Of a DNA stretch of 64,000 nt, positions 13,441-33,835 are shown piece after piece. The position numbers and the translations under genes are program-made. Location of the stretch: positions 51,199-115,198 of the forward strand of contig JACGCK010000145.1 of assembly GCA_014925825.1 (NCBI GenBank), given 5' to 3'. How positions within the stretch are numbered: position 1 is the first letter of the stretch; every line of letters begins with the position of its first letter. The notes under the pieces are model-generated. The model was not told where the DNA came from. It saw only the letters and a program-made list of their open reading frames with translations, and made no database searches. The stretch comes from Pholiota molesta (lineage: Eukaryota; Basidiomycota; Agaricomycetes; Agaricales; Strophariaceae).

Positions 13441-15259
13441 TCATAAATATTTAGATCGAGGCCTATTTTTATAGGCAAAGCCGATTCGTGGACGTACATT
13501 GGCACCGACAAATCCATCTGCATAGATCATGTAGAATTCATTGGTCTGCTTGAGGTCCAAGATCGATGCTACGCATGGAAGGTGCGTCTCCACGTCATCG
13601 AGGAAGATAGGGACATCTCCTGTGCGGATCGTACTGGATAGCAACAGTGTCCCGGGTGGCTTGCCCTTCGAAGATGGCGCAGGGGAAGGCATGTCCAGCA
13701 TACCCTTGGCAAACAGCACGGCTGCGAGAGAGAAATCTGCGATAGTGACGGAGCGGCGATATAGCCCATCTATTTCACCTTCAGAATAAATAGCGCGTTG
13801 ACCATGTATATACCTGGGCACATAAGGGGGTAAGACGTGAGCACAGAGATCTTGTCCATCGTTCAAACGGATGTGAAATTTGACCTTTTCGAGCTCCGAG
13901 ATATGGGAGTATAAGTAAACCTCGTGTTCAGTGGGCCCCATTCAGCCCAGTAAATATCCCGTGCCAAATCGCCGTTCTGCACTTGCCGTGCGTACTTCAA
14001 AAGTAAACGCTGGTGTAGAAACAGGTTCAAAGTACTGTCTTCCCGGCCGTGTTGATCAGCAACCTCGTGGTTGTATACCACCGTAAAGAAATGCAAGCGG
14101 TCATCGTTGTGTATCGAAAACGGTTCGTTAAGGAGCGGATTCGCTTCGATAGGGCCTGCTTCACTCTGGAATCCGCGGATATATACGCCTGGGGCGGTAG
14201 GTGGAAAGTGGAGTGTCACGAGGTGAATGGCTTGGGCAGTGGTTTCGTGACGTTTGGGTCGTGCGAGCCTGTACAGGCGAATCGATCCGAAGTCAGATCG
14301 ACATGTAATGAGGAAGCATGTAGAATCGAGAAGCCTGAAGTTATTTATCGAGGCGAGAAGAGAGGGATCAGAGGATATAGCGGTGTCCTGCGTAATTCAA
14401 ATAAAATTGATTGAAACGGGACATAAAGTGCGCGCTCACCAATATGAGATCCGATGTCGTCCAGTCCCATACCCTTACTTGCGTCTCCCTCATGGTATTG
14501 TGAAAAAAGATCGCCAGGATATTGCATGCGATTTGTATCATTACAGGGTTGTCAGTGACGACGTTTATGTATGGGTCCGGGTGGTTGCTCCATTGCAAAG
14601 GACTTTGATGTGCTTGCGGATGGATGGAATTAGTGGATATGGAGCGAATGTGGAGGGAGTGCGGGCTACGGAAGATCCGAAGCTTGAGATGAGAGCTATA
14701 AAATAATAAACAGATACTCAACTACTCACGCATCGCCCTCCTCTAGGATCACCATCAAATCCTGTGTCGGATCCATTGTAAAGTTTGCAGCTGAAATTCC
14801 GATTGAGGATCTTTGAAGCGCATGTGCCTTAGCGTTGCTGGCAGTAGGGAGCCGTCGCATTTCAAAGCGGTCCTCGCTTATATCCGCATATGCACCACCA
14901 ACAAGCTCAAATGCGTGACAGTTATGTTGCGTAAGGTGAGTAAGTGGTTCTTTTATCTCGAGTGAAAGCCAGTCCTGACGTCGCCGCCTGAGGGCCTCGA
15001 TGAGGTCTGGGTAGTCGAGAGATGTACCAGCGTCCTTGAGGCCATCCCGGTGCAACTCAATAGTATACGCTAACAAGGAGGAGCCTTGGAAAGTTTCGTA
15101 GATGGATGTACATGTCTGTGTGATTCTGTTATTTAGCTTCTTCCCGAGATCAAAGCGACATAGACTCACCATGGCACAGCGGATGAGAGAAACAGCATCG
15201 AGGTTGGAAAGGATTTCAACTTGCAGCTCTATCAGTAAATCACAGAAAGTATTCGCCAT
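13441..15259 (-). CDS. F-box protein, copy 2
   Basis: Paralogue of the gene at 7253-9048. Exon 1 encodes MANTFCDLLIELQVEILS and the rest of an F-box; introns follow at about 15113-15171, 14676-14724 (TTTTATAG acceptor) and 14390-14440. Exon 3 stays in frame here, unlike copy 1. Between GPLNTR and YIHGQRAI the two copies differ by indels that would break the frame; a GT-AG intron from GTTTAC to GTGCCCAG restores the frame in both, so I prefer a spliced model. An in-frame 27-base insertion (13461-13487) containing a small palindrome lengthens the C terminus compared with copy 1. Likely an SCF substrate receptor of unknown target. Confidence 0.72.
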
Positions 15260-15571
15260 TATGGACGCAGACTGTGGACGTCAATCACAGAGGGACAATT
15301 CGCAGTATATGTATCACTGCAGTATAAAACTTCATCATTTCCCAGGATCTTACACGCAGGCTTAATCAAAATAGACAACATGTAACGATGAAATTTGAAA
15401 CAAAGGCTCTGTTTCCTCCCACATCCTGCCTATCATTCCGTACAAATCCTCCACTCTCGCGGAAGAAACAAGCAGTGAAAAATCTTCGTATCGATCTCCA
15501 AGGTGAGGCCATGCCCGATGAGGTTGTGTGTATCCACACAAGACGAAATTCATCATTGTGTGTGTACATAT

Positions 15572-15740
15572 AATTCCGAATTTAAGCGGCTACGCGGGAA
15601 GCGAACCGCCAGGATTTAAGACATTGGGTTGCGAACCGATAAGTGAACCGTACCAAAAGAGCGTTTCAGCAAGGTAGCATATGCAACCGACCTATTTTTG
15701 TATGTACCATCTGCGACGCGATAAAATGTACCGTTGGAAA
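15572..15740 (+). repeat. Left terminal region of the proposed element
   Basis: Ordered words: GAATTTAAGCGG, AAGCGAACCGCC, GGATTTAAG, TTGCGAACCG, AAGTGAACCG and, near 15722, TAAAATGTACCGTT, which looks like a half of the internal palindrome. The right end (33175-33281), read on the minus strand, gives AATTTAAG, GGGTTTAAG, AAGTGAACC, ATGAACCGG, GCGAACCGG and a full palindrome. The order is similar although there is no long exact inverted repeat. From 15741 to 16102 I see nothing further. Confidence 0.5.
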
Positions 15741-16102
15741 AACATGTGAAAACTGATTGCATCAACGCATAAAAAAGGGGCATTGATTAGATTCTATTCT
15801 TATTCATGATATGAAGTCCACAAAAACTACGGGCGCTAAAGGAAGGGATCTCATTTCAATAGTAGAACTCCTTATATAACTTTTTTACACATTGAAAATT
15901 ATAAACCATTGAGTAGAATATTTGGGACGCTACAAGATATTGGTATAATACATGCAAATGAAGCTCAAGATACAGATGGAAGTAATATAGTACAACGGGG
16001 AGGGGAGCACATAATGCTCGAACAAGATAACTAGGACATGAATTAGCATTTCTGCTTGCCAAAAAATCGGCGGCATACCCGAAGTTGTGGCTGGTGGATG
16101 GT

Positions 16103-17372
16103 TTATGAATGCACTCCTTTACGGAGAGTGGTACCTGGGATTACAAGTAAGTAATAGCATTTGAATGATGATTCACAACTCACCTGACGCTGAGACGGAG
16201 GAAGAGGTCGCGGAGGCGAACGAGGCCCTTATCGGCGTGTTCACCGCATTCCAAAGCCCTCCCAGCACATCCCCGTCCTCTCCGCCTCCCAGAATCACGC
16301 CGAGGTCGAACCGTCGGCCCAGCATCTCTCCCTGCCCTTTCAGATCTGCCCCCTCCGGATACTGGTCTGACCAATCGAGCCATGTGAGTGTTGCCGTTCT
16401 GCGTTTGTTCGTCGGCAGCAGCTCGTGTCGGTGTGGTTGTTGTTGCTGCTGTTGCTAAAGAGGTGGGTGATGTGGCAGAGAGCAAAGGCTTCTTGAGCTT
16501 ATTTCTTCTCGCCACCACTGCCACTGCCACCACTGCCTTTCACGCGCGCTCGTCGTTTCGACTCCGCTGCCGCCTCGTAAGTCCTTCTCTGTCGACATCA
16601 CATCCGACTTTCGGCTGACTTGCTACGGTGCGCACCTCTAGCCTTCGATCGCGTTCGCAGCCCCCCACACGCATCCGATAGCCGTCGTCCTTCGCAGCAA
16701 CGGCGCTATCCGTCGTGTCCAGCCACCCTTCGCGGCGATCCGTGTGCAGCTCGTGCGCGAGCGTGTCTGGTACGTCCCCAGAGGTCCATGCGGCCGCCGC
16801 CCCCACTGACGGGATCTCTGCGCGCTTTCCCGCAGTGTACGCCGCGCTACAGGACGAACGAGTCGTGTAGGGAGGGGCTTAGGGTTTCGCAGGAGAGTCG
16901 GCGGGTGCGCGTCAGGGTTCGACCAGGCGTCGAGAAGGTAAGGAATCGGTGGGCGCAAGCGTGCGCGGGAGTTGGCTTCGACTTGTTGGGAATCGTTGCA
17001 CACGGCCGAGGGGTTTGGCTGCCGCGAGCGCCGTTTGAGTTGGGCGCCGGTGGGGTGGGGGCGAGGAGCGCTGGAGGGGCCTTACGCGGCGTCATCTAAC
17101 GGGCACAGGCCGAGGGCTTTGGATGTCGCGAATTGGAGGAGGTCTTGCTGGAGCGGCCGAGGTGAGCATGATCCAGAAAAACGGATGGTAGCTTACGGTG
17201 AAATCGTCCGCCAGCCACCAACGACACCTCCCGCGACGCCGAACACCGTGCCTCGTCGTAAATTTGGACTTGTCGTCGTCGCCCAGAGCGCATCGCAGCG
17301 ATGAGCTGCCGAGCTGGCATAGCCAAGGTAAGCAAGGATGCAAGACAACGCCAGGCGACTCACGTTGCCCAT
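16103..17372 (-). CDS. Hypothetical element gene z (GC-rich, model tentative)
   Basis: The start at 17372 is supported by a palindrome array whose nearest copy (17438) lies 66 bases upstream, as in genes a, b and c. The first exons read MGN, then LGSSSLRCALGDDDKS onward to WWLADDFT, then QDLLQFATSKALGLCPLDDA, joined by ordinary GTGAGT and GTAAGC donors. Middle exons are uncertain; one candidate after a CTGTAG acceptor reads AAYTAGKRAEIPSVGAAAAW. The last exons read LDWSDQYPEGADLKGQGEML and end in TTLRKGVHS before TAA. GC content is much higher than in neighbours. No domain is recognised. Confidence 0.35.
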
Positions 17373-17427
17373 CGAGCCTGATCGTCGACGCTGAGTCGTC
17401 GTTGATGCAATGGATCCTTGCCGGCGC

Positions 17428-17660
17428 AATGCGAACAGTACAAAATGCACTGTTCGGCTAGCCCGGATGACTGCGCCTTCAGAAATTGCACATTTCGCTA
17501 CGAGCATAACGATCTGCTCTGCGAACAGCACATTTTGTGCTGTTCGGCTAGCCCACGCGTTTCGCTATTATTGGAACAGTACATTTTGTGGGTGGTCGGC
17601 TAGCCCACGCGTTTCGCTATTCTTGGAACAGTATATTTTGTGGTGGTCGGCTAGCCCACG
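17428..17660. promoter_or_regulatory. Palindrome array upstream of gene z
   Basis: Four copies of a palindromic word: GTACAAAATGCAC (17438), GCACATTTTGTGC (17528), GTACATTTTGTGG (17579) and GTATATTTTGTGG (17631). Flanks are conserved (GAACA before, TTCGGCTAGCCC or GGTCGGCTAGCCC after), and the last three form a tandem repeat of about 51 bases. The array is also just past the 3' end of gene a. Confidence 0.7.
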
Positions 17661-17694
17661 CATTCCCACAGAGAGACAACACTATATTGAGTAA

Positions 17695-18294
17695 TTACGC
17701 GGCCAGATCACTACCTACCCTAATCATATTTTGAGACATCAGAAACACCAATAAAACGAGTGGCCTTACCCTATGCACCCGGTCATAGTCAATATCCAAC
17801 ACGTCGCGCCAATGTTGAGAGGGAATGCTAGTGACGGTGCTGATTGCCTCAGCCATTACGTCGCTTCGCACCTATTCAGAGCATTAGAAGGAAGACACAG
17901 TGTGAATATGAAGGAGCTTACCTTTTTCTTGAGAGCGCCTTCTTCAAAGGTGGGCCAGCGATCTCGGGATATCTTGTCAATACGTTCGAAGTACTCTTTT
18001 AGGTTGCCTTCGGCCTCTGCTTGGTGATAGAAAACGGCGGCGTGCTTTGCGAACTTCCAGATTGCATATGAGTACCTGTCAACCCCGGCAGCTTCGACGT
18101 CGGAGGAAGCAGGGGATGCAAGCATCGCCTGCCTGATCTCGAGGAGCATCGCCACCCAAGGATCGATCCCTTGAGTGAGTTTGGTGCCGGACGCGACTTC
18201 GGAAGGCTCAGTCATCTGATCCCCAGGTCAATGCAGTTTCCTACCACCTACATTCAGCAGTACTTACCTTGGCCGCTTCAATGCCCAAGGACAT
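17695..18294 (-). CDS. Hypothetical element gene a
   Basis: Exons 18268-18294 (MSLGIEAAK), 17922-18215 and 17770-17871 are joined by canonical introns of about 50 bases and stay in frame. The protein then either reads through to TAA at 17695 or ends a few codons after one more intron. It is small (about 145-165 residues), helical in character and acidic to neutral, with DRYSYAIWKFAKHAAVFYHQ in the middle. No signal peptide, membrane segment or known domain is seen. Its promoter carries the shared palindrome array, nearest copy 49 bases before the ATG. Function unknown. Confidence 0.6.
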
Positions 18295-18342
18295 AGATAG
18301 ATGATGGGGGGATGAAAGCAACGAGGTGTTCAGTTATTCTTC

Positions 18343-18560
18343 GAACAGTACATTTTGAGGTGTTCGGCTAGCCCACGCGTTGCCGACTAGTACAAAATGT
18401 GCCATTGACCATCCCGCGCATGCCGGCCACATAACAGTACAAAATGTGCCCATGACCAGCCGGCGCTTGTTCGGGCATGCGAACAGCACAAGTTGTGGGA
18501 TAGCAAACGGTACAATTTGTACTCCCCGACAAAGTCCGCCATACGTAGTACAAATGTACC
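18343..18560. promoter_or_regulatory. Palindrome array upstream of gene a
   Basis: Copies: GTACATTTTG (18348), GTACAAAATGTGC (18390 and 18437), GCACAAGTTGTGG (18486), GTACAATTTGTAC (18510, a perfect palindrome) and GTACAAATGTAC (18548). GAACA and TGTTCGGCTAGCCC flank the first copy, as in the other arrays. The array fills the space between the 3' end of gene b and the start of gene a. Confidence 0.75.
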
Positions 18561-18730
18561 AGAGTCCACGGCATACTCATTTAGAATGTAGAAAGCAGTC
18601 ACCAACAACATCAATTCTCAGAGAAGCACTATTAAAAGGAAGAAAGGAAGAGAACTATGAAATGATGTCGAACGAAGAAGGGACCTACGCTTGCCCTCGT
18701 TGAACACCCAAAGTTCTACCCATAGTCCTC

Positions 18731-20985
18731 CTAGTCCTCTTCGTCCTCCTCGCCATCCGCATCTTCCTCGCCATCCGCATCCCTGGTGTTGCGAGTCGGC
18801 CTGGCCTCTGCAGTGTTTCGATCCTCTGGATGCAGCTCGCTCTGAGGGTCCAGAGGTTCCCACGTATCTGGCAAAAAAACATTGTGGATAGGTGCGAGCG
18901 TGTTCTTGAGGGCCGCTAGTTGCTCCTTGAGGGAATCCGCCATGGCACCGTGTTCGGGGTACTTTGATAACTGAGCTTGCAAGCGTTCCACCGCCCAGAT
19001 TGCGGTCGAAGCCAGTCGCTGCTCACGTCGCGCATACAGTCGCGGCGTAGTCAGGCCCGAGACTTCTTGGATTCCAGCCCTAACCAACGTCAAGGCATCT
19101 TCATGGATCACCATGTTCGACTTTTTCGGAAGGCTGTCCGGAGTGCGTACGCCCGGTGTGCGAATCTGTACACCCTCAACACCCCCAGTGGCCTTGAACA
19201 GCCAAAAATCCAAACGGGCAAGATCAGCATTGCATCCGCAACGGAGATTGGCAGCATTGGGATTTGGGTACTGGACTGGACAGTATTTCTCGGCTTTGGT
19301 CTTGTCCATGCAATTCAAGCAATATTGCTTGTTTCCCTGAAAGCTGAGTTCGTAATTTTTTCAATCACAATTGGTGTGAATCACGTACTCTCTTAAACAC
19401 TTGTCGAATACCCTCATAACCAACGGTCAAAATCCAAGGATGCGCTTTTGGGTCCTGTTTAGCTTCACGCATCATGGTGGCAGTCACATTCAAGAACGCC
19501 TCATTTGGCTTTTCTGCGAGGTTCGCCATAAGTAATGGGTCTTTGTTGGACCCTTTGCGGTACAATTTCTGCGGCTTCTCTTTCACCAGCTCCAGGTCGA
19601 TCAACCAGTTGTAGACTCGCGCAAAGTCGTCCACAGTCGTACGACGCGTAAGGTTGATTTCAGGTTGAGGGTAACCCGCGAAGGATATATGCTTTGTGGC
19701 TCTCGGGCACACCTCCTCGACCGCGTCTTCCAGTACTTTAGCTGCATTCAACAACGGCACCATATCTTCATATTCCGCCATGTCTAGGTCTATCGCCCTC
19801 AAATAATTAGGGTCTTTACGGTGACCGGCGATGAACTTCTTGTACGATGCCGTGAACTGGGTGTAAGCGGACCCTGGCAATTTGAGGCGGATGAGCTCCC
19901 TGCGCCCCTTGAGATCTCCATAGAGAGGATTCTGCGTCACGGGGTGGTAAGGCTGAGCCGCAGGAATAGGGGCGTAGTGGACCGTCTGAGCCGCCTGGGG
20001 GTGGAAATGCTGAGACGCCAGAGGCGGCGGGTAGTGGAAAGACTGAGACGCCAGAGGCGGCGGGTAGTGGACACCCTGAGCCTGTCCACCATTGTGCATC
20101 TCAACGTCGGGTATGATGTTATTGACATGAAACATGTCTTGGTCGGCTATAAGCCATTTAGCTAAGAAAATCTGAAATCACGACGAAACTTACTATGGCC
20201 GACTACTCCATCTCCCTGCTGAGGACACCCGCTGCTTCCAGGCTGCGCTTCTCCCACTATCTGCTGACGATACAGCTCGACCGGCGCATTATTCATATAC
20301 AGAGGATTTTGCGCTCCTAAACCGTGATATCAACCGAAATACCCACAGATGCAAGGTCATAGACACTCACTGCTTCCAACATAAGGCTCTACTCGGAGAT
20401 TGAAGCCTTGACCATAGGCATTGTCTCCTACGTAGTCGCCTAAGCCCCTCAGTAAGTAAGCCCCTATACCTTGAGTCAGGCCAAGGAAACTTACCTCTAT
20501 CCAAGCACTGTGCGTAACCTTCAGTGAAAGCACGCATCGGATCATCGATCTGCTGGCCCGATGTATTATAGGGGAGCGAGTTTATCGAGTCTTTATTGAT
20601 GTAATTAGCCCTCACTCTAAAACTGCGGCCAGGAATCTTACTGTTGTCAGGCGCAGGCCACTCCATCTCTCTCCGAAGTCGTTCATTGTGCTCCGCAACG
20701 AGGCTATGGAGGACATCTCTGTCATCTGAGAAGATGTAGATGAATACTCTCACTATACAATCAAAAACCCAGGGAACACTTACTGTTGCACAAGAAGTGG
20801 TTTTTGCGAGGCCCCCTCTTCATCTCTTCATACTTCGCCAACACATCCACAATCTTTTGCAGTTGACTGGCGGGATCTTGGTCGTGGACACGGGGATGTG
20901 TGAAGTCAACCCATCCCTCGAGTTTGTCCCGAGCAATTGTAGTTTTAGCCATTGCAAAGGGAGAGGATGAGTACAAAGCGTCCAA
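18731..20985 (-). CDS. Hypothetical element gene b, 675 residues with a Cys-rich segment
   Basis: Six exons fit exactly in phase (20784-20985, 20495-20725, 20371-20463, 20194-20316, 19389-20161, 18731-19336; 2,028 coding bases). A start at 20952 (MAKTTIARDK) is an alternative. The middle has a Pro/His/Tyr-rich stretch with repeated HYPPPLASQ, then a helical block beginning RRELIRLKLPGSAYTQF. Exon 6 opens with YCLNCMDKTKAEKYCP and RCGCNADL, a possible zinc-binding site, and the C terminus is acidic (DGEEDADGEEDEED). The shared palindrome array starts 51 bases upstream of the ATG. I do not recognise the family; a nucleic-acid or chromatin role is only a guess from the Cys cluster and acidic tail. 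Confidence 0.72.
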
Positions 20986-21035
20986 TGCGAAAATTTTACC
21001 AACCGGAGGCCCATCTACCGACTATTGCTCAAACA

Positions 21036-21213
21036 GTACAATTTGTACCGCTCCAACAGTACAATTTGTACCCATCGGGTAAATCTTTGGCGCTTTGCCT
21101 GATTTGTATATTTTGTACTATTCGGCTATTCCATGACCAACTCTACGATCGCTTTGTTTTGTACCGATCGTCGATTAGGTTTATATTGATTAGGCGATCT
21201 GTACGTTTTGTAC
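21036..21213. promoter_or_regulatory. Palindrome array upstream of gene b
   Basis: Perfect GTACAATTTGTAC at 21036-21048 and 21059-21071, then TGTATATTTTGTACTATTCGGC at 21105, TTTGTTTTGTACCGATCG near 21153 and GTACGTTTTGTAC at 21201-21213. The TTCGGCTA flank matches the arrays before genes z and a. Confidence 0.75.
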
Positions 21214-21295
21214 CAACTATCTAGGTATTGCTAGATACCCTTCCTGATGCATACAGGATCTACAGACATGGATTTTGCCTCGACACTGGTCCAGT

Positions 21296-21867
21296 CTACT
21301 CTGCGACCAAATTAATCCTCATACTATACCCATACTGCGAATAAGAGACTCACTGTTGTCAGTTTCGGATGACGGCGGGCTCTGTTCATCTCTTGCAGGC
21401 CATCCATGCGGCCACTCCTGGCGCTGCGCCTCCGTTAACGGCCATGCAGGTCCAATATCTTCCCATCTTGGGAGGCTGGAAAAGCCTCGAGCCCAGGCAG
21501 GTTGCACGTCCCAGTTGTAGGGGGCTTGAACGCCTAAGGGGCATTGTCAGCCTCGAATCCCAGGTATACGCAGACAAGAGACATACCGTTCGTTGCAGCA
21601 CTGGCCTCGTCAGCAAATGTCTTGGCCTGAGACCCCGTAGCCCGTGTGTCCTCAGGACGTGTCGGCGAGGTGTGATCACCTTGGACGCCTCAGCAGTGTC
21701 AGACTCAAATCCCAGGGATACGCAGTCAGAACAAGAGACTTACCGTTCGTTGACGCACATGCCTCAGCCTGAGAACCAGCAGGAGATGCCTCGTCAGGTT
21801 CTGTCGCTGCCTGAGAAGTCTCAGCAAGCCCCTCCGCACGACGTTCAGTCAGCTCTTGTGGAGTCAT
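21296..21867 (-). CDS. Hypothetical element gene c, about 136 residues
   Basis: Four exons (21744-21867, 21587-21688, about 21354-21533 and a last one of a few bases ending in TAG near 21296) join in phase through short GT-AG introns. Exons 1 and 2 end alike (ACASTNG, ASAATNG) and their following introns are similar, so part of the gene arose by exon duplication. The protein is low-complexity, rich in Glu, Ala, Ser, Thr and Pro at the N terminus and Trp/Pro-rich later (PLTEAQRQEWPHGWP). No domain is known to me. The palindrome array lies 70 bases upstream. Confidence 0.5.
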
Positions 21868-21937
21868 GGGAGTAACACAGTCGGAAGGAAGAGAATGAAA
21901 GGGAATTTCACTTGCCCTCGAGCTTATTGCTCAAATG

Positions 21938-22143
21938 GTACATTTTGTAGTCGTTGGCTTGATTGAACACCTGATTGCCGAGATGGTACATGTTGTACTC
22001 TTTGGGTCTGCTTTCACCAGCCCGCTGCCGATCTGTACATTTTGTATCGTTCGGGTATTTTTCACCAGCCTGTTGATGATCTACGCATTTTGTACTGTTC
22101 GGCATTTCTTCACCAGCCGCCCGCCGATCTGTACGTTTTGTAT
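21938..22143. promoter_or_regulatory. Palindrome array upstream of gene c
   Basis: GTACATTTTGTAG (21938), GTACATGTTGTAC (21986, perfect palindrome arms), GTACATTTTGTAT (22035), CTACGCATTTTGTACTG (22081) and GTACGTTTTGTAT (22131). Each of the last three is followed by GTTC, and CACCAGCC recurs between copies at about 50-base spacing. The array separates gene c from the 3' end of the Spt5-like gene. Confidence 0.75.
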
Positions 22144-22326
22144 CGTTCTAGTAAAATATTGTTCAATGATGAGCGTGCTATTCATGTAGGACAACCAATG
22201 ACGTACCGTCTCTCTCTGAGAAATACACAATTTACTTGTAAGATGTTTGTCGAAAACATACCTGTTAGTTAAATAGCTTCACTGATTATAGGGCTCGTAC
22301 ATGCAAAGGTTTCGTAGTATATCGAA

Positions 22327-24632
22327 CTATCTACTGCCCGGATACACTTGTACAAGATCTGAGACAGGGCATTCATGGTCTGGGTTCTTTTTGGTCGGTC
22401 TTTTCATTCCTGGCTTCCGTATCACACACCGACCCTCCACGATCTCGACGACCTTGAAGTGCAAACCCTGCATTTCCCCTGCCCTGAGCGTGACCAGATC
22501 GCCCTTGGAATCCGGTAGCAGCGCATCCACAGACTCAAAGGAAAGCGATCTATAAGCCGCCTTGTCCCTCACTCTGACTTGATCATTCTCTACACCCATG
22601 AACTCCACACATGGACTTTCCACTGTAGGGTCAGTCGACCTGAGCTTGAGCCTCGAATTTCCGAAACCTGGATCATCTAGCCAATGAACAGGACGGCTAG
22701 GCCGATCCTGCGGAACTGGGGTCTGAGATGAAGGATCCCATGCAGGACTCAGATGTGACGATGTGTGGGATGAAGGATCCCAAGCAGGTGTCAGTCCAGC
22801 CAAATCGGAGGGGGCAGATGTCGCCAACGTCGATGGTGTCACAACCTGGGCTCGGTTGCTCAACAAATAGCCACTGGGCACATCCTCATGGGTCCTGCTA
22901 GATAGTGAGCCGCTTAGGAACCATACACACGACAGAATAAGCTTACAAATGGAGGAGATCAGCTAACTCAATTCTAGTCGAATGTTGCAGCCGTGAATCT
23001 AGTTGTAGAAAGGCCCATCCGTCCGGAGTTGTTGACGTGATTCGCCCTTTGTATCCTTTGAGCTGATGCAGCCCAATAACCATGACCCGTTTGCCAATGT
23101 AAACATCGTTGGGGTTTTTTCCACCGAGCTTCCCCCACTTAGGATAATCCTCCCGAGGTCGAAGACCTGTGATCACCGTGGGGGTATGGAATTCCACGTC
23201 CATCTTTGGCACATCGACCTGTATGTACGAAGTCAGCAAGCGCGGTTCATGATAAATAAGGTAGATTGACCTCGATGTTGTCTTGAATGTTCAAGACGCG
23301 TATCCTGTCCGCTGAAATTCCGATTACCCAACCGACTAGGCCTTTCCTTTCTCCGTCAACAACTACAACCTGATCCCCGATGTCGAAAGCCGCCCGCACA
23401 CTGTCCTGCAACATATCTTCAATAATATCTTGAGAAGGCAGGTAAACGGCGACTTCATTCTCCTTCATCTCCACCACATTGCCAAGCATCCCAAGATAAG
23501 TTCCTACCATCACCTTGACCCTATCTCCGATGTTCATGCGCATTTGAATAATCATACGGTCTGTCTGCACCGCCGTCTCCGTTGAAAGCAGGGAAGTCGA
23601 GCGAAATACAGCCAATTCGGCGGAGGATGGCAGTGTCTCCAGCAAGGGAAGAATATCGATGTCGTCCAAATCAACCAGTAGCAGGCCCTCGGCGGAAAAC
23701 GTTTGCTTGTTCCAAATGAATCGGCCATGCTCGTCGTCCTCCACAAGGGATAGGCCAACCTGGACCTCCAACACTGCGCGTTCAACGAGCGCTTGTCGCG
23801 GCCGAGATTGGCCGCCACGAACATCCTCCAAAACGAGTCTTGGAATCAAGGCGAGATATTTCTTGCGACTTCCTTCAACCTTCTCTATCAGACCAGTGTC
23901 GCCCTGGTACCAATGCCATTTCTTCTTCTTTCCCCCAACCCTCGCCCACTGTTGACACGCATGCCGAGAAGAGGCGAAGTTTAGTATCTTCGGAATGTCT
24001 TCTCGAGGAACGAGTGATATTCGCAAAGGGTCCAGTTCTGCTAGCGACCGCGCCAATTTGGTGGCTTGCGCAAACCCGGTCACTTCTGCATAGATACGGC
24101 CTGGGATGGGAGTCGCAACGATGGACGAGGCTAAAACCTCGGGGGTGGACGGATGGCAGGCTCGCTGTAGAACTTTGAATGGAATAGTTTCCTCCTCTCC
24201 AATCTGTAAACCATGAATATTTAGAAAAAGCAAATATAAGGGCGTAAAACTCACTCTACATCCGATCTCCCATAACATGTCTGTGTTCTGTAGCTGATAC
24301 CCGATATCCTCGTCAGACTGGTATTCTCGAGCGCTGGAGTGCCACTGGAGCCGCCTGGCCATTTGCTGCCATTTGCTGACAATGTTGTCGTTCTCGTTCT
24401 CGTCCTCGTCCTCGTCTGCCTGGGTTATGCTCCGATACAGGGTCGAGTGGCCCTCATCCGTGTTGTCATAATCGTCCTCTAATGTTGGAATTTCAGTTAT
24501 TTCAAGGCAACATTAGGGCGATTTTCACTTGCCAGCGAGGAATTCATCATCCTCGTCTTGCCCCTCCTCTTCTTCAGAATCTTCGTCAGCGATAGCCTCC
24601 AAGTCCATGAATATATTCTGGTTCATGGGCAT
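22327..24632 (-). CDS. Spt5-like transcription elongation protein with NGN, KOW segments and TPAW-type C-terminal repeat
   Basis: Five exons sum to exactly 700 codons (24533-24632, 24255-24478, 23271-24203, 22947-23218, 22327-22897). The first intron has a GC donor (GCTG|GCAAGTG), required by phase. The acidic N terminus (DSEEEEGQDEDDE) is followed by an NGN-like block (PGRIYAEVTGFAQATKLARS, then LVPREDIPKIL), a KOW1-like block (WHWYQGDTGLIEKVEGS, then LIPRL), two more KOW-like hairpins (GTYLGMLGNVVEMKEN, GERKGLVGWVIGIS), a fourth near LKGYKGRITS, then LTPAWDPSS and LSPAWDPSS, like the Spt5 C-terminal repeat (TPAW in fission yeast). Spt5 binds RNA polymerase II with Spt4. At 699 residues it is shorter than host Spt5 (usually about 1,000), so I infer a diverged paralogue. 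An upstream exon MSESARPRKRQRT is possible but does not join in phase. Confidence 0.78.
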
Positions 24633-24836
24633 GTTGAGTCTGTGTTCATTTCTCATTTCTTTTACTTCATTTAACGAACCTTGGTAGTTCGTTGTCTTTT
24701 ACGCGGGCGCGCAGATTCTGACATTTGTATTTTTTGGTCTACCACAGTAATAACTAACTAACTAAAGATGATGAACGTAGCGGAGAAGAAAGAAGACCTT
24801 GGGCGGCAACCATGGCGTATTAATACTGCCAAACAC

Positions 24837-25158
24837 TTTAGGGTGGGTTCTCATTTGCGGTTGAACACGGGGGAAGCGGCAGCAAGCTCCCGAATGATGC
24901 GGTGCTGGCCCGCCAGCGTGGGACAAGGTTGGTAAGCTGGTTCCAGAACCAGCTTACCAACCTTGTCCCACGCTGACGGCCTGCCGAGCCGTGAGACCGA
25001 AACCTGTGGGACAAGGTTGGTAAGCTGGTTCTGGAACCAGCTTACCAACCTTGTCCCACGCTGGCGGGCCAGCACCGGCAGGTCGCGCCCAAGGTTCTCC
25101 AAATCGGGAACTTCAACCAACTTCAACCAACACGTGTAAAATGAGAACCGACCCTAAA
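24837..25158. mobile_element. 322-base MITE-like element with terminal inverted repeats and nested perfect hairpins
   Basis: The ends are inverted repeats of about 20 bases: TTTAGGGTGGGTTCTCATTT on the left, and on the right its reverse complement with one mismatch. Inside are two palindromes: arms of 29 bases (24915-24943 and 24946-24974, loop CA) and of 26 bases (25006-25031 and 25034-25059, loop TG). A larger symmetry pairs 24903-24922 with 25055-25074. The open frame across it merely reflects the palindromes. It sits between the divergent starts of the Spt5-like and JmjC genes and so lies in their shared upstream region. Confidence 0.8.
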
Positions 25159-25404
25159 TTGATAGCTACTATTTAGACTCCCGCTTCTTGACTTTGCCCT
25201 TCTTTTCTGACTTCCATCTTCAGTTGTAGTATAGCGTCTGGTAGTTAGATTGACTGCTATTTAATAGGATACAATACAACGCGATTAATAGACGATAGAT
25301 AGATACTAAGACTAAAGTAGTGTAGCCCAAATTGTTAAAAAACAAAAAGTAGAGAACTTGGTCACTTCGACAATAGAAAGTTATCGATAACATGTCAGAT
25401 AACA

Positions 25405-28400
25405 ATGCCGAAGACCGTATGTCCTGATGTTTGTTGTACCAGGGACCATCCTATTGATTGCCCGTCTATTCCAGTTATCCATTTCCGAGGCAAATGCGCC
25501 CTCATAAGAGACTACCCTCTGCACCTCATAAATTTTCGCAGCAGTCTGGTTGACATGTTCCCAGAAGACAACCCATATCGCGTACGTGCTTGCAATATTT
25601 CTCATTGTCTTATCTGCTGACCAGACCTCTAGACCGTTGCAATCAACGTTCCAAACTACGAACGAATGCTCTCCACGTCGGAAACGCCTGGGGTTAGGTT
25701 ACTTCGCCATTTTCTTGGTGACCCGACCATTGACAACGATACCGCGTCGATGGCTACCAACGGGACAGCCCAACTCAAAGTGAAGTATCACGACCGGGTG
25801 TCAGCTCTACTGGCGGCTTATCGTCTATTGGACTTGGAGATACTTCGTTTGGGCACAGTACCAACGATACCAACGCCATTATATCCGAAGTCGCTCACCC
25901 CTCAGATGGTTGAGCATGGGAAGGTCAAGCCAACGTGGAAGAAACTCGAAAAATGGCAAGACATCATCATCAACTTCCGCCAATCCCTGAGGACGGGATT
26001 GCAGCCAGTCCAAGGCCTAGTCACAGACATGCCATCGCCATTACGCGGGTCGCTTGCTCACCTCCAAGGACTGTCTGATTCGCATGCGGGCCAAAAGCTC
26101 GGTACCTTGATCCAAAATTTTCGCGGGGCGGCTCTGCATTTGACGTTGATCAAAGAAACCGCGGATTTCCGTAACACCAAACTGCCAGGAATTCCCGAAT
26201 CGATTGCTGCGTTGGTTGCCGGGGATCAGCCTGTGGTAAATGTTGCTGGACTGCCTCTAACGAAATACGACCTCCACACACGCGAGAAGATGCGGGACTA
26301 CCTTAATGACCATAGCAGTGGCGAGCTGAGCTTGCCGCTGCACTTGTCTCTGTTGTTGACCCCGCTTTGCTTGTTAATGCCCGTAGCCCATGTGAAGGGC
26401 AAATTTCGTCGGCCATCGCTTTCTGAGGTATGTCTTCATTATGTACCTGTCGATGGTCTATCACTCAAGCTCTTTGGGCAGCTCTCCCGCGCCCTTGGCA
26501 ATGAAAAGCCAGAAATTCTGACGAGGGTTGAGAACGAGATCTGGAAGGCCCTATGGATGATTAACGAGGACTCCAGCATGCCAGTCATCATCAAGGCATT
26601 CCAGCAACTCGCCGATTCTGACGTATTTCATGAAGTAGTCGGTATACATGCTACAGACCCCGCGTTCTCCTTCTTCAGACGTGCGTTGTTCTGCTATTTT
26701 TTTTTATATCGATACAAAAGCTAAGTCAATCTCCAGCTCTTGGGAATAACGCCGCCACGTCGCAAGTGAGGAGCGAAGACAGCACTGTGAATGCGTTCCC
26801 TCTGTCGCAACTTGTCACGCCCAGGTTCCAAGAATTGGACGCCGATGCTGATATGGATATGGATACGACGCAGGGGGTGCGCGAGACTGTTGGAACGGTG
26901 GGACAGGATAGCGCGGCGATGGATGTAGACGGCGCTGAACAAGGCGTAAACCATGGTCAGAAGGAGGTAACCGGTCAGGAGAAGGAATCTGAGGAGCCCA
27001 AGACGAGTGGAACGATTCAGGATACCGCGGAGATGGATGTAGACGGCGATCAACAAGGGCCAAAAGATGGAGAGATGGATGTAAATGGACACGAGAAGGA
27101 ATCAGACGATGCAGGACGTAGAGCGAAGGACGTAGAGAACGCAGAAAAGGTACCTGATGGCGAAGAGGAACTGGCTGTCAACCAGCAGCCGTTGAAGCAG
27201 AAACAGGCTGAGAAGTCTGACAAGGACGATGAGGATGGAGAAGGCGAGGATGAAGCGGAAGAGGAGCCAGAGGTTCAGGTGGAAGAGGAACTGGCTGTCA
27301 ACCAGCATCCGTTGAAGCAGAAACAGGCTGAGAAGTCTGACGAGGACGATGAGGATGGAGAAGGCGAGGATGAAGATGAAGAGGAGGGAGAGGTTCAGGT
27401 GGACGAGAGAGGTGAGGATGAAGACGAAGATGATGAAGAAAATGAGGAAGAAAATGAAGACAACGAGGGCACTGGTGCAGGAATTGGGCGAGCACCTCGA
27501 CTGTCTCGAAAGCGTCCAGCGAAAAGTTACGCGGAAGGAAAAAGAGGCACAAAGCGACGTAAAAAACACTCGTCCGCCGCGGTGGTGAATGAAGAGGAAC
27601 AGGTGCAGGATCAAGAGGAGGAGTCAGAAGAAGAGATGGAAGTCTCCCGATGGGTGAAACTAGAGGAGGACATCTTCGTATGTTTATTCGCTAATTCTCT
27701 GAGAAGACTTGAATAACACTAGTCAGGTGGAGGCTGCATTTTGCAACCTGGATATATCGAAAACCGGCAAGGAAAAGTTGCGTCTGGGACGCAAGGTAAA
27801 AGCGTGGGGTCCGAAAGAGGAGTCACTGGAGTTTGAGCCCGTGTGCCATGTACGCATGCCCATTTGTTGACATTCAGATACAAAAAAATCTAATCAGGGG
27901 TGTAGAACGAGGAAACGTTACGAATTTTGCAATTGTTGGTTGCGCGAGTTGAAGAATGTTACGCATATGAAAAGCCTTTGCATGCGAAATACGACGGCCA
28001 AGGTACCCGTAAAGAGTCTGTTTTCAAGATCTTAAGCGAAGAAGAGTTCATCGCGTTGGAGGACTCAGCGGTGCAAGAGATACTGCGCCGACAGAACATC
28101 GTAGTGACAGGCATGCGACGCAGACAACGAAGCTTTGAAGAAGCTCTGCTAGATCTCGCTCCATTAGATTCGGTCACCAGTATTCATGGTGAGTATTGCA
28201 TTCTTCAAGTCCAACAGTTGACTGATTTTTGTATAAAGACCAGAGCTACAATCCTGATTATCACGGATGTGTTCGTACGGGCAGGGTGGCTGATATTCTC
28301 GATGCCTCCCGTTCACCTGACTCTAAGATTTTGAACGCTCTGGAATTTCCTGACCCTTTCGCAGGGATTGAGAGATCGACTTTTTCTTCCGACGCGCATG

Positions 28401-29752
28401 CTCTGGCGAGCGTATACAGGCAGGAAGGATGGGTCAAAACTGCCATACCAACTGAGCATGTCCGGTGGGGATTGGCGGCCACTACGGGGGCTTTCCATCG
28501 CTGGCATATCGACAGCGACGGCTTTGGTACTTTTATTGATCCTGTGGCCGGTTCGAAATGGTGGATTGTTGCTCGCCCAAGGGGCAATCTAGAGCACGAT
28601 TGGTTCCAAGAGACTAAGTGGCTGAAGAACGATGCATTTGACCTGGACAAAGACGGTAAAGGGCTGTTCGATGTCGAGGCCATCCTTCTGCAGCCTGGTT
28701 CCAGACTGTAAGTCCTACCATTCGTATTTCACGTCCCATAAATTAACATCTGAGATCTACAATAGCATCATGCGACCGAACACCCTTCACGCGGTGTATA
28801 CACCTGAACACGCTGTTTGTCGAGGAGGGCATTTTTATGCAACCTCCACAATGCAAGATACCTTTGTAGGGCTGGTACACGCCTTCATATGCGACAAGTT
28901 CATCACCAACACCAGCCATGCACCCTCGCGATTTATCTTGGCAGAAATGATAAATTTCTACCACACCGCCCTAGTGAAAAACAATTTGCGTGCTAATGGT
29001 GGGTCGTCTTGAGCTTGTTCCTCTCGACTTCTAGTTTTAAAATCTCACTAGATCCAGCGCGTCATCACGTACCCGCTTTGAAGACGGAGGAATCTCTTAT
29101 GGATTTCCTGGTTGTATGCGGTCTCGGAGTGTTGATCAACGTCCTATCTCTCGAGACCTATACAGCGCCCGGGTTGAATGGCAGGTTCGCAATGGACAAA
29201 ACACAAGCGCAGCAATGGAAGAAATACGACATCAATGCGCTTTCTGAAGATGATAGAAAACTGTATTGTTTGGCCAGAGCACAGTCATTCGAACTCATTG
29301 CATGGCTCAACTGGAACTTTTCCACTGGGTTAGAGAATATACCCATGGAGTCGTTGTTCACAATCATGTTGACCAACATGTGCAAAATGTTATGCGACTA
29401 CAAGTGGCGGGCCGACAAGGAAGAAATCAAGTGTATGGCTGATTTTACCCTCGAAAGGCTCCAGGGGCAGATCACCGGCGTGTTGGCATTAGCTGCAAAC
29501 AGGAATCCAGAGCAGGTGAAATCTGCTACGAGCGAAATTAATGCGTCGAAGTGGAACCTTCCGATGAATAATAGTGTGGCGCAGACGATATTGCCACGCG
29601 TGGTGGGTGGGCTCAAATTCAGGAAAATCAATCGGGAAAAGTCATACGAACGATTGCCTCAGGCAGAATTGTTCAAGAGGGGGCAGACAGCACTCGATAA
29701 GGTGTTTGGAAACATGCTCGACATTAAACGCGAAATCACGGGTGCGTCCTAG
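25405..29752 (+). CDS. Large JmjC-domain (2-oxoglutarate/Fe(II) oxygenase-type) protein, 1,324 residues
   Basis: Eight exons sum exactly to 1,325 codons (25405-25581, 25633-26680, 26737-27677, 27727-27849, 27906-28188, 28239-28707, 28766-28998, 29052-29752). The N terminus is Cys-rich (MPKTVCPDVCCTRDHP). The middle is very acidic and contains a tandem 120-base duplication (two copies of EEELAVNQ, PLKQKQAEKSD, DDEDGEGEDE), followed by a basic KRGTKRRKKHSS stretch that could be a nuclear localisation signal. The JmjC core shows the iron ligands HID at 28504-28512 (FHRWHIDSDGFGTF), GSKWWIVARP and the distal His at 28788-28790 (MRPNTLHAVYTPEHAVCRGG), so it looks catalytically intact. Such proteins are numerous in mushrooms and their substrates are unknown to me. 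A final short intron near 29739 is possible. Confidence 0.8.
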
Positions 29753-30114
29753 AGTTATCTGTTCTATATCTCAGAATCTGAGATCGGATTTTTGTAGACA
29801 CCTGAATGACGAAACAAACAATGCCGGTCAAGGTTGGCATTATTTGCTGTTTGGGTCTCATGGGTAACGGCCTCCTTCGCGTGGTGGTTTCTATGTCGAA
29901 TTAATTTTCATGCTGTATTGCAATGAGTATCTACTTGCCTATTGGTGTAACGCAACATTTCCCAAAAAAAAAGATCTAGTTTACAATGACTGTTTTGACA
30001 ACAACTAAGATTTTGTTTAATACTGCTTGAAGTCTTTGTGAGCTAGGGCAACGTCTCTATGCTTGTTTCCAGTCAAGAATAAAATCCTCAACCCTAATGC
30101 GCCTTAAAAAATGA

Positions 30115-30180
30115 GGGAGGAGACCATAAATCGGCCTAAATCAGCAGGTAAGTCTCCCTTAAATCGGCTTAAATTTTCAC
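30115..30180 (-). repeat. Internal copy of the terminal motif
   Basis: On the minus strand this reads AATTTAAGCCGATTTAAGGG and then two more TTTA-type words, like the left end (AATTTAAGCGG ... GGATTTAAG) of the proposed element. It lies just beyond the 3' end of the recombinase gene and could be the true left end of a short Crypton, or an older end. From 29753 to 30114 nothing else is seen. Confidence 0.4.
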
Positions 30181-30365
30181 TAAATCTTGGAGTTCTATGT
30201 TACATTGCCGCACATAACATGGCACATATTGCAACAGGATTTAAGATAAGTAAAGTCCGTCATTTTGGCCAGCTGTTCTTGTCTGACGACGAATTCTCGG
30301 AGGGCAGCTTGCAAAAATGGAACAGTGTGAGGCGTAATGGGGTCTTATTTTGACAGAACTATGGA

Positions 30366-32923
30366 CTACCGTCTACTACGCTTGGAAGGGCCTCTTTGGC
30401 GTACTTTAGCTCGTCCATTCGACTGTTTGTATTTACGTACGGCCTCGTAGAGCCCCTTCCAGCAGTGTACGAGGTCACCGTACTGTTGGCAAAAACTGGC
30501 CTCATTGCCTCCATGCTCCTCTTCGATTTCGTCTACCACCGACCGGATATTATAATATTTGATTTTTTCACTCTGCGATATAGATTTCAGGTCATATTTT
30601 TCGTCCCATTGGGAAAGCGGAACCACTAGCCCATTATATGGGCACCCACAGTTCCAATATTTGAGCGCCATCTTTAACGATTTACATGCAGGGATGCGTT
30701 GCGAGGAAACATCGGGGATCGCCTGGGAACCCGTCGTGGTTGGGGTCGTGCGCGCCTGCGAAGATGATACCTCGGGGATCGCCTGAGAGCCTGTCGTGAT
30801 TGTGGTCGTGCGCACCACAGAGATGGGTGTGGGGTGCTGGAAGTGACGAGGAGGTTGGTAGGTTGGGGTTATTGGCTCCTGGAACTCTTGAGGTTGGTAG
30901 CTAACGGCTGGAGGGTAACATTGGGGCATGGGAATTGGGGCTGCAGTTTATTGTGGACAGTAAGTGCGTGCTACATTTTTTGAAAAGAAATGTAAAGACT
31001 GACTTGTGTCATAAAGGGAAGCCGACTGTTTTTGAATGGGCGCTGGAAAAGAGATTGCGTTAAGCATGATAAATAATGGCGAAATTTCTGTGATACTTGC
31101 TAGTTTCTACCATTGTATATGGCGAGGAGGGCATGGAGGACGTATAATCTAGGCGTTCCGAGGCTGTTTTTCAGTGGTAAGTGCTCGCTCATATCGATTC
31201 AAGTAGAAAGCTTACTATGCATAGTACCTAGGCGTTCCGGTGCTGGTGTGGGGTGGTAAGTGCTCGCTCATATCAAATAAACCAAAGAAACTCACTCTGC
31301 ATAATAATCTGGGTCAAATTCTGAACGCATTCCCTGAGCTCTTTGATTTCGGTAGAGGAGGAAGGTGTGGCTGGCGCATATCGCCCCATGAGAGTCTCGC
31401 GCCGGTTGAGTGGTCGATCAGGCATCATAATATCGCCGTAGTCGTCCTCGTAAGCTGTCAATTCGTCGAGGAGATATCGCATGATGGTGCCAACACTGTC
31501 ATTCGATGACCAGCCACCCCACCATTTAACAGCCTTCAAGGACCAAGGATTCTCGACCCACATAAACCGATATTGGCATCCACCTCGTCGGAAGCAATGT
31601 GTGGTAAATTTACCAGGTCGTCCGTCCAATACATCAGATTCTTCCACAACCTGTTCAAGCAAACGGTCGAAACCAGTCTTACTCATCTGTTCGCCAATCT
31701 TGAGCTTGCCTGTGGAGGCCATTGCAGGGAAAAGTGGGTCGGATGGCAGAATCTGCCTGGGCGTATGCTTTTGGAGATATTCGAGCCAGGTTTTGAGGTG
31801 AGTGTAGCAATCCAGGTAGACAGGATTCCCTGGTTCCTGGCAAATTTTATACATTTGTGCTGGCCATGTAATTCATTTGCGAGCGCTATAATATCAAACG
31901 GAGAACTCACCTTTATTCGCGTCATTGTTGGTTTTACGGAACACCAAGGTGACCTCTAGGTACGGAATACCTGTTGCGGAACTTTGCGGCCGGATTGCTT
32001 GGGCTTTGAGGGTGAGTAGCTCGTCACATCTGAGGCATGGTGGATTGGTGAGCCCGTATTTTTGTGGCTTGGCTGACATTCTTGACTCACCGTGTCCAGA
32101 GGGTAAAAGCGGTCAGTGAAAAGGCCTTGAAGTACAGCCTTTGCATGTCTGTGAATTTTTTGAGGCCTTGAGGACTGTCGAGATACTCGAAGAGAATCCG
32201 AAGGTCATCAGGGAGCATGGCCTTAGCCTGAACGGTGATGGCACTGCGGTCTTTATTATTGAGTGACTCATAATAGGTTTTATACTGGTACTGGAATACT
32301 GGATTTCCCTCCCACTGATTAGTGTGCTCGTTGTGCCTCCAGTAATCTCCCTGGCATAGGAAAACCCTGTACAAGAGTAAGAAGAATATTATAACAACCG
32401 ATGTGAATAAATTGACGCACCTTTCGAAATAATCCTTGAAGGCGGACCTGATGTTCTGGGCTGTCGCGAACTTGCAAGGCTTCTCTTGGGTTTCGCACTT
32501 GAACGTCGTAAGCATGAGAAGAGCAACAGGTGTGTATTCATTGAGCTCATCAAAGGCACGCAGCATGTCTTCAGGACGATCTACTGTCTCGGTAACTGCT
32601 CCATCTCCTTCCCCGACGGCGTTCTCCAGCCAGTTTTTCAGCCATTGTTTACCACTCGAAACCGTCGACCTGTATTGTTTAGTCGTGCGCTTCGCCTTGA
32701 ACCATTCGTCTACTGTTTCTCGTCCTTGAGCGAGAAGACCCGAAACGGTGGCCGGCTGCGATACGGTAGGGACGGCTTCCTGTCTGGGCGGATCACTGCA
32801 CTTGGACGCGACCGAGGCAGCTGCCTGCCTTGGGGGCCTGCCTCGCCCTCTTTTCTTGGGAGCTGGTGTGGGGGTGGGTGGGGGTGTACTAGATGATGGT
32901 GAAGAGCTACGAGAGGAACCCAT
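30366..32923 (-). CDS. Crypton-type tyrosine recombinase with C-terminal GCR1_C-like domain, 721 residues
   Basis: Eight exons give exactly 722 codons (32421-32923, 32091-32366, 31911-32029, 31296-31859, 31216-31242, 31101-31163, 31004-31042, 30366-30940). One intron after exon 6 needs a GC donor (ACTA|GCAAGTATC). The N terminus has an AT-hook-like KKRGRGRPPRQ. The catalytic set is visible: Arg in FTLWTRCDELLTLK, His and Arg in THCFRRGG, Trp in WWGGWSSND, and the likely nucleophile Tyr in MRYLLDEL. The C-terminal exon (LKYWNCGCPYNGLV, PLSQWDEKYDLKSIS) resembles the GCR1_C DNA-binding domain of fungal Cryptons. Exons 5 and 6 (TPERLGTMH, TSERLDYTS) and their upstream introns are a tandem duplication. 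It should cut and rejoin the element through a circular intermediate. It appears intact. Confidence 0.85.
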
Positions 32924-33088
32924 AATTGAGGGATAAGATAAATGATTAGAGAGGGATTGAAGGGGATTCCGGTGCAGATGAAGCGTACGCGCAGTGCAAG
33001 TTTAAAGGTTTAACGAGCACACGCAGGCCATACGCTTGAAGGGCACCCGAATTCCCCCTAGGCAAATAAAATAAAATAGAACGGAAGA

Positions 33089-33160
33089 CTACAAAAAGTA
33101 CATTGAGCGTCTAAGTATTCAGACTCTGAGGGAGATACCAGGCAACAGTACTTTTTGTAC
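33089..33160. promoter_or_regulatory. Palindromic operator-like sites upstream of the tyrosine recombinase
   Basis: CTACAAAAAGTAC at 33089-33101 and a perfect palindrome, AACAGTAC-TTTTT-GTACTGTT, at about 33145-33163, followed by CGC. They lie 166-240 bases before the recombinase ATG and have the half-site and spacing found in the arrays before genes z, a, b and c. Confidence 0.65.
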
Positions 33161-33174
33161 TGTTCGCGTCAGGG

Positions 33175-33281
33175 GCATGCCGGTTCGCGGTGGTCTGGCA
33201 CAAATTGTCCGGTTCATTTTGGTTCACTTGGGGCTTAAACCCGGTTTAGCGGGGGATCTTAAATTTTGGGGGGCTATGACC
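33175..33281 (-). repeat. Right terminal region of the proposed element
   Basis: Minus-strand order from the outside in: CCCCCCAAAATTTAAG, ACCGGGTTTAAGCCCC, AAGTGAACC, ATGAACCGGAC, GCGAACCGGC. It is inverted relative to similar words at 15572-15740. TACATAT follows at 33282-33288. Bases 33289-33835 hold no gene other than the 5' region of the first dehydrogenase. Confidence 0.5.
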
Positions 33282-33835
33282 TACATATCCCAGTGACCTC
33301 ATTCCTTATCCATTGTCGTCCCAACTGGGCGTGTTCACTCCCATGATCTAAAAGAATCCGGTCATTGCGTTATGTTCCACCGGCGAATCGATCCTTACGC
33401 TTTGCTAGTTTGCGATGCGACCAAGATGCGACACATTTCCACGTTCTTCCTAGACCAAGTGTCCATTGAAGGTACTAGTAAAGGCTGACTCTAGCCTATG
33501 TCCCTATGGGCTTATCATATTCCAAGGTCAGCAACTTCCTGGCTGGCCCAGTTCATCCTCATGCATTCTTCTACTGGATCCCCCCATGACCAATCGCAAC
33601 CAATTGGCAGCACCAAGACCCTGTTTAAAAAGAAGGTGCGGCGGACAATGTGGGGGTATCACAAGATTGTCCACAAGTGAGCCCACCATCATTCCTGAGA
33701 GATTATTGATAATCTAGAGCATCCCAGGAATTCAGGGACGGCCTCAAGGTCAGGTATAAAGGACGAGCATTCCCTTTGATACGGGTCAAACGACATCACC
33801 CAACGTGCCCCCAGTTTATTCGTTTCGCTATCAGG

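Follow-up and report, generated by a model that had tools for sequence, protein, structure and literature searches.

The window, a 64 kb stretch of DNA (C52:51199-115198 in a 65.6 Mb assembly of 625 contigs), contains a 17.7 kb unit with the 6-bp word ACATAT at both ends, a tyrosine recombinase gene (the captain) at its right edge and further genes inside. This unit is one mobile element with fixed ends, found at five or more loci. We hold with high confidence that it is a cargo-bearing, Crypton-like tyrosine-recombinase transposon of a fungus, probably an agaricomycete, and that it integrates at ACATAT. Six element genes could be modelled, recombinase included; judged by their similarities, two of the cargo genes could act on chromatin and on transcription. 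The extent of the element, its ends and its genes are as follows.

15566..33288, no strand: whole element, 17,723 bp, its extent supported by the same ends in the full copy C61:76402-94041 and by unfilled sites
15566..15571, plus strand: left core ACATAT, 6 bp, which starts all four left junctions of the subfamily (C52, C61, C157 twice)
15581..15649, plus strand: left subterminal array, TTTAAG at 15581 and 15615, [CT]GAACC at 15602, 15632 and 15644; partly kept in the 83% subfamily
17700..18230, minus strand: small gene, ends approximate, modelled by eye
18730..20951, minus strand: function-unassigned gene; its exon 19365-20177 is matched solely in copies of the element
21345..21870, minus strand: possible small gene (weak model, by eye)
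22330..24735, minus strand: Spt5-like KOW-domain gene; exon 23247-24512 is above the cut-off for PF23284 and PF00467, gene ends by eye
25394..29752, plus strand: JmjC-like 2-oxoglutarate dioxygenase gene with an acidic middle region; HxD in exon 28226-28711, second His in 28767-28996; the start codon, the outer exons and this second His were placed by eye
30366..32923, minus strand: tyrosine recombinase gene, exons 32923-32421, 32366-32091, 32029-31911 and 31859-31296, small exons between not resolved, last exon about 30947-30366
33182..33263, minus strand: right subterminal array, inverted, TTTAAG ending at 33263 and 33239, [CT]GAACC ending at 33226, 33216 and 33187
33283..33288, plus strand: right core ACATAT, 6 bp, which closes all four right junctions (C52, C61, C10, C217)

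Copies, ends and target sites

The earlier note on this DNA had proposed a cargo-carrying mobile unit and a search of the genome for other copies with the same ends. The mobile unit is borne out by a second full copy, by partial copies and by unfilled sites with a single core. The second full copy (C61:76402-94041) is 98.6% identical to the window unit and has the same ends and other flanks. Among the stretches fetched from the assembly and aligned, with matches of more than 150 bases counted, it aligns solely to window 15566-33289. As for the partial copies, C10, whose contig begins at window 16537, aligns from there to 33290 and holds two insertions; C217 aligns to 29939-33288, and C556 aligns to 29939-32947, where that contig ends. 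With the recombinase exon as query, the assembly yields 12 matches, of which five (C52, C61, C10, C217, and C556) are at 97-100% and seven at 34-45%. The left-end DNA query (971 bases) gives 13 matches, four of which belong to the window's subfamily and begin at the first base (C52, C61, and C157 twice), while others represent a diverged subfamily at 82-88% (C181, C192, C620, C7, and C248) and the remainder are short pieces. The right-end query gives six matches, of which four are full (C217, C61, C52, and C10) and two are pieces of a relative on C289. In addition, the KOW exon and the JmjC-like exon are each matched at 98% on C433.

According to the junctions, the ends are exact. ACATAT stands at all eight junctions of the window's subfamily that were read, with differing flanks, and both full copies have it as a direct repeat at each end. 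The element had been placed at 15565..33288 with TACATAT at both edges; the right end and ACATAT stand, the left end is corrected to 15566 by the full copy on C61, and the first T does not belong to the repeat, the base preceding it being T, A, T, and C in the four left junctions read. Since ACATAT occurs only 32 times in the 64 kb window on both strands, its recurrence at independent insertion sites is not due to chance.

At least five insertion loci can be distinguished by their flanks (X, Y, Z, V, and W). A single ACATAT is found in the one unfilled allele of locus X, where C212 matches 1.4 kb on either side at 97.1% and 93.7%, in seven of the eight repeat copies read for locus Z, in one of the two unfilled alleles of locus V (C246), and, with two extra bases, in the one unfilled site of locus W (C188). 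The earlier note had named an empty site with edges elsewhere as evidence that would speak against the unit; the unfilled sites keep one ACATAT at the element's own edges. Filled and unfilled states of the target are thus observed, and movement of the element is inferred from them. The diverged subfamily, about 83% identical over the left end, occupies the ACATAT position of a 232-bp tandem unit, two other copies of which are unfilled. On C181, C192, C620, and C248 this subfamily resembles the first 1 kb or so of the element and then departs from it; its other end and a recombinase were not found in what was read.

The same junctions bear on the possibility that the unit is a segmental duplication or an assembly repeat, copied by genome rearrangement with no transposon involved. 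This would agree with the origin of the window's two flanks from different loci and with contigs C556 and C10 starting or ending within copies, but such copying would not stop at the same base in eight junctions, nor leave unfilled single-core alleles at different loci, and we regard it as hardly credible.

The flanks themselves are crossed. To the left of the window unit lies the partner of the C217 right flank, and to its right the partner of the C61 left flank; the C61 copy is likewise crossed, with left flank X and right flank Z. The window is therefore chimeric at the element (15565/15566 and 33288/33289), probably owing to misassembly through the 17.7 kb repeat, which is the simplest reading because C61 is crossed as well; exchange between element copies is a possible alternative source. 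The genes to the left and right of the element in the window contig may thus not be true chromosomal neighbours. On the left, window 7105-9352 and 13303-15568 form a 2.3 kb duplication (83.6% identical) with related genes, one of them F-box-like, and one of the two copies has the element at its end.

Two copies carry nested insertions. In C217:7717-18257 and C556:252099-262553 a retrotransposon, read by eye as Ty3/Gypsy-type, is nested in the recombinase end of the element at window 29939. It is 10.5 kb long, has reverse transcriptase and integrase-like frames (by eye), and its 181-bp long terminal repeats are identical in C217. Its left flanks differ between C217 and C556, with no target-duplication match to the right side by eye, and this mismatch fits misassembly. 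An alternative cargo in C217 and C556, in which the captain end would be followed by 10.5 kb of other sequence, was considered and dropped, as that sequence reads as the Ty3/Gypsy-type insertion at 29939. The C10 copy holds a 3.8 kb insertion (C10:531-4326) with 1.6 kb inverted arms (96.5%), and related sequence is present on C7.

The recombinase and the subterminal arrays

The four resolved recombinase exons encode 487 aa in a stop-free frame from the start at 32923, and a further C-terminal exon lies at about 30947-30366. The gene is on the minus strand and reads inward, with its start codon 365 bp from the right end of the element. The search found 109 homologues, and 20 rows, including the window sequence, were aligned. 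Wherever these rows cover them, HCFRR (HxxR), WGGW, and the Tyr of RYLLDE vary little or not at all, and the first Arg (LWTR) is kept in eight of eight rows of a second alignment. The third exon in the window reads FRKTN, as do the homologues covering it, and one relative, P0015, exceeds the PF00589 cut-off. The earlier description of an intact tyrosine recombinase at the edge reading inward thus holds, the catalytic residues being kept. The named relatives include Mycena, Sphagnurus, Athelia, Auriscalpium, Pleurotus, Mortierella-type fungi, and one plant label (Salix); grouped into fungal classes, these names make a basidiomycete or mushroom host plausible.

Assignment of this enzyme to the GCR1_C type is not sustained. 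GCR1_C (PF12550) was not detected in the captain's C-terminal exon, and the model matches C235 and C411 in the same genome and no captain copy. Those two stretches (C235:257159-257368 and C411:239970-240179) exceed the GCR1_C cut-off and are possibly ordinary Cryptons or domesticated genes. The spliced captain also has no DUF3435 (PF11917) match at E up to 10; the genome search for DUF3435 was negative too, though its control genomes equally gave no match. A scan of NCBIfam returned a single match far under its cut-off, and a sequence search of solved structures with the recombinase as query returned no recombinase. In one scan of viral contigs with the recombinase alignment, 15 stretches fit a pattern and none encodes a relative.

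The two ends share short words in inverted orientation, as had been claimed. Within the outer 120 nt of the ends lie 4 of the 15 window occurrences of TTTAAG (both strands), in inverted orientation, and 6 of the 58 of [CT]GAACC, these words having been counted only after the earlier note had named them. In a test without preselected words, the ends have 14 6-mers in common, where random pairs of window pieces share 3.3 on average (p 0.0012, 5000 pairs). A true terminal inverted repeat is not supported: the local alignment of the outer 150 nt is non-significant (42 of 500 shuffles score as high), so the words are better described as subterminal arrays.

The ends and the recombinase together allow two further explanations to be judged. 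In the first, a DDE transposase that duplicates 6 bp of its target site moves the unit in trans as a passive passenger, with the recombinase as part of the cargo. Some DDE enzymes make 6-bp target-site duplications, and the length of the repeat would fit; DDE duplications usually vary in sequence, whereas the repeated bases are ACATAT at all eight junctions. The ends also lack a significant terminal inverted repeat, and most fungal Cryptons are reported to have 6-bp terminal direct repeats (PMC3212892, in the portions cited here). We consider the passenger explanation very improbable, and the element's own recombinase probably drives insertion at ACATAT.

In the second explanation the element is a true Starship with exchangeable cargo, whose DUF3435 captain has diverged past detection by Pfam. 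The captain at the edge reading inward, the direct repeats, the length of 17.7 kb, and the extra genes all agree with this. Against it stand the lack of a DUF3435 match for the spliced captain, the genome search being negative with its control genomes equally silent, and the presence of the same cargo in both full copies, and we judge it improbable, if somewhat less so than the passenger. Regarding cargo variation, the two full copies share their gene set, and the 83% subfamily, as far as it was read, has only roughly the left 1 kb in common with the element. Of the Starship-like character originally suggested, the layout is therefore retained and the captain family is not.

Cargo genes and the palindromic motif

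The dioxygenase weakly resembles histone demethylases. A profile of 63 sequences (61 of 87 homologues and two window pieces) finds 12 solved structures with E no higher than 1; nine are KDM7, PHF2, or PHF8 demethylases, and even the best E, 0.01, is weak. The three profile-structure alignments inspected span the iron-binding HxD motif. No Pfam model, TET/JBP included, matches the window dioxygenase exon or its relatives, and Foldseek with a poorly modelled JmjC-like relative gave nothing at E <= 0.001. As for the function-unassigned gene, all 10 assembly matches of its exon 19365-20177 are in element copies.

The JmjC-like and KOW genes are also frequent elsewhere in the assembly, with at least 24 and at least 27 matches, respectively. 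Outside element copies the JmjC-like gene is on at least 14 contigs and the KOW gene on at least nine, and among the matches listed both are on only four (C3, C610, C168, and C350), none with a listed recombinase match. These numbers favour the view that both are host-type genes carried by chance and useless to the element. On the other side, wherever both occur the divergent layout of the element is kept, with the two 4.5-7.9 kb apart and identities of 27-35% (KOW) and 38-46% (JmjC-like), and the JmjC-like frame at C610 is open across the motif. C3 and C610 are equal in KOW score and may therefore be one kind. Carriage by chance appears unlikely on balance, though it is the strongest of the alternatives.

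A palindromic motif occurs in five clusters inside the element, and a perfect inverted repeat separates the divergent gene pair.

17438..17591, no strand: motif cluster 1 (GTACAWWTTGTAC-like), beyond the 3' end of a gene
18390..18522, no strand: motif cluster 2, upstream of the 17.7-18.2 kb gene
21036..21213, no strand: motif cluster 3, upstream of the 18.7-20.95 kb gene
21938..22143, no strand: motif cluster 4, upstream of the possible 21.3-21.9 kb gene (weak model)
24900..25077, no strand: perfect inverted repeat, arms of 72 nt, containing inner palindromes; it lies between the KOW gene and the JmjC-like gene, which are divergent
33089..33160, no strand: motif cluster 5, upstream of the recombinase gene

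The motif had been assigned to five of seven genes. The five clusters are confirmed, four of them upstream of modelled genes (one weak); the remaining cluster lies beyond a 3' end, and the genes modelled number six. With at most one mismatch to GTACATTTTGTAC, all 12 window matches are inside the element; with at most two, 16 of 17 are (0.26 expected there), and with at most three, 29 of 48. Exact GTACAWWTTGTAC gives 45 rows in the 65.6 Mb assembly, equal to 25 places, of which 15 are in element copies, two at the relative on C289, and eight elsewhere. That relative (C289:164260-164620) is distantly related to the right end of the element and carries several GTACAWWTTGTAC palindromes of its own. 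Judged from the sequence, the cargo does not look random, given the recurring JmjC-like/Spt5-like pair and the concentration of the motif in the element.

Proposed mechanism and known systems

The recombinase would recombine the two ACATAT cores and so excise the element as a single-core circle, whose core would then recombine with a genomic ACATAT elsewhere. Such excision and reinsertion through a circle is the model proposed for Cryptons (PMC3212892, portions cited here). The TTTAAG and [CT]GAACC arrays inside each end are putative binding sites of the recombinase. Through the GTACAWWTTGTAC palindromes, one regulator may act on several element genes jointly, and the JmjC-like and Spt5-like proteins might sustain transcription of element genes against host silencing.

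Several observations weigh against the interpretation as a Crypton-like transposon integrating at ACATAT. ACTTAT stands in one of the two V alleles, ACACAAGTAT in one of the eight Z copies, and ACACAC in the window paralogue of locus Y, and the left core of the diverged subfamily itself is ACATTT. Only two whole copies are among those fetched, each joining flanks of different loci. The joint of the two element ends, expected in a circle, is absent from the assembly with two mismatches allowed. Pfam gives no match for the captain itself, two stops interrupt the recombinase exon of C61, and AlphaFold2 models of the recombinase exon and of a JmjC-like relative were poor (mean pLDDT 51 and 54, respectively) and left unused. 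The reversed pattern, used as control for GTACAWWTTGTAC, gave 22 rows against 45, and the recombinase-exon matches listed include none at the four KOW/JmjC pair loci.

The literature searched, with preprints outside that search, yielded no published description of this element. In comparison with CryptonF (PMC3212892, portions cited here), both have a tyrosine recombinase, a fungal host, and no terminal inverted repeat, as well as 6-bp terminal direct repeats, which in Cryptons are thought to be the recombination substrate and here are ACATAT in filled and unfilled sites. Some oomycete Cryptons hold one extra gene, a C48 peptidase (Kojima and Jurka 2011, PMC3212892). This element differs in its 17.7 kb length, several extra genes, two-word subterminal arrays at both ends, and the absence of a detectable GCR1_C. 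With Starships, as described in the cited portions of PMC12134995, it shares an inward-reading recombinase gene at one edge, direct repeats, cargo, and a length of at least 15 kb, as well as a single target sequence in the unfilled site; it differs in having no DUF3435 match, in carrying the same gene set in two full copies, and in lying at the small end of the size range. On sequence grounds, the terminal repeat size, core, and enzyme class appear to fit Cryptons, while size, gene content, and GCR1_C absence do not, and the layout appears to fit Starships, while the captain family does not.

The premise that Starships are described from Pezizomycotina is contested by the report of eight in the basidiomycete Tremella fuciformis, 41.9-605.8 kb long and identified with Starfish captain models (PMC13066641, portions cited here). 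These are likewise large recombinase elements in a basidiomycete, compared here by description only. Fungal DNA transposons encoding TET/JBP dioxygenases are also known, with mushrooms among the hosts (Kojima 2025, PMC12730594, portions cited here), and resemble this element as mobile elements with a dioxygenase that may counter silencing. The dioxygenase studied here looks more like JmjC (KDM7/PHF8), with the PE type too diverged for a sequence search to exclude; PE-type TET/JBP proteins are reported to be detectable only by structure-aided comparison (PMC12730594, section 3.2.3). Cryptons are not among the transposon lineages listed there for TET/JBP, and the word Crypton has no occurrence in the main text of that paper.

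The copies differ in age and decay. Among three aligned copies, C61 has 119 private substitutions (100 of them C-to-T or G-to-A), C10 has 43 (33), and the window 22 (12), and the private C-to-T changes are at CpG in 91 of 100 cases for C61 and 30 of 33 for C10. This suggests that the older copies decay through host methylation of CpG followed by deamination, or through a mutation process that targets CpG in repeats. A wider scenario can be offered tentatively, and we think it less likely than its negation: mushrooms may have large cargo recombinase elements of their own, of separate origin from Starships and integrating at ACATAT, with an anti-silencing kit (a JmjC-like dioxygenase opening chromatin and an Spt5-like factor driving transcription) that is switched by an element-wide palindromic site and directed against a CpG-methylating host.

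The element represents a multi-gene tyrosine-recombinase transposon of a probable mushroom, with exact ends and unfilled alleles, and its recombinase has no detectable GCR1_C or DUF3435. Large cargo elements would then be a repeated outcome of fungal recombinases and not the speciality of one group. The fixed target ACATAT makes integration directly testable, and the recurring JmjC-like/Spt5-like pair, together with the CpG decay of older copies, does the same for counter-silencing by a transposon-encoded histone-type dioxygenase. In another source of sequences, P0003 (recombinase, 57%) and P0171 (dioxygenase, 34%) are each on three contigs, the longest of 5386 bases, and may share a contig, which is a lead only; P0197, a 99% KOW match, sits on a 22,880-base contig of another source.

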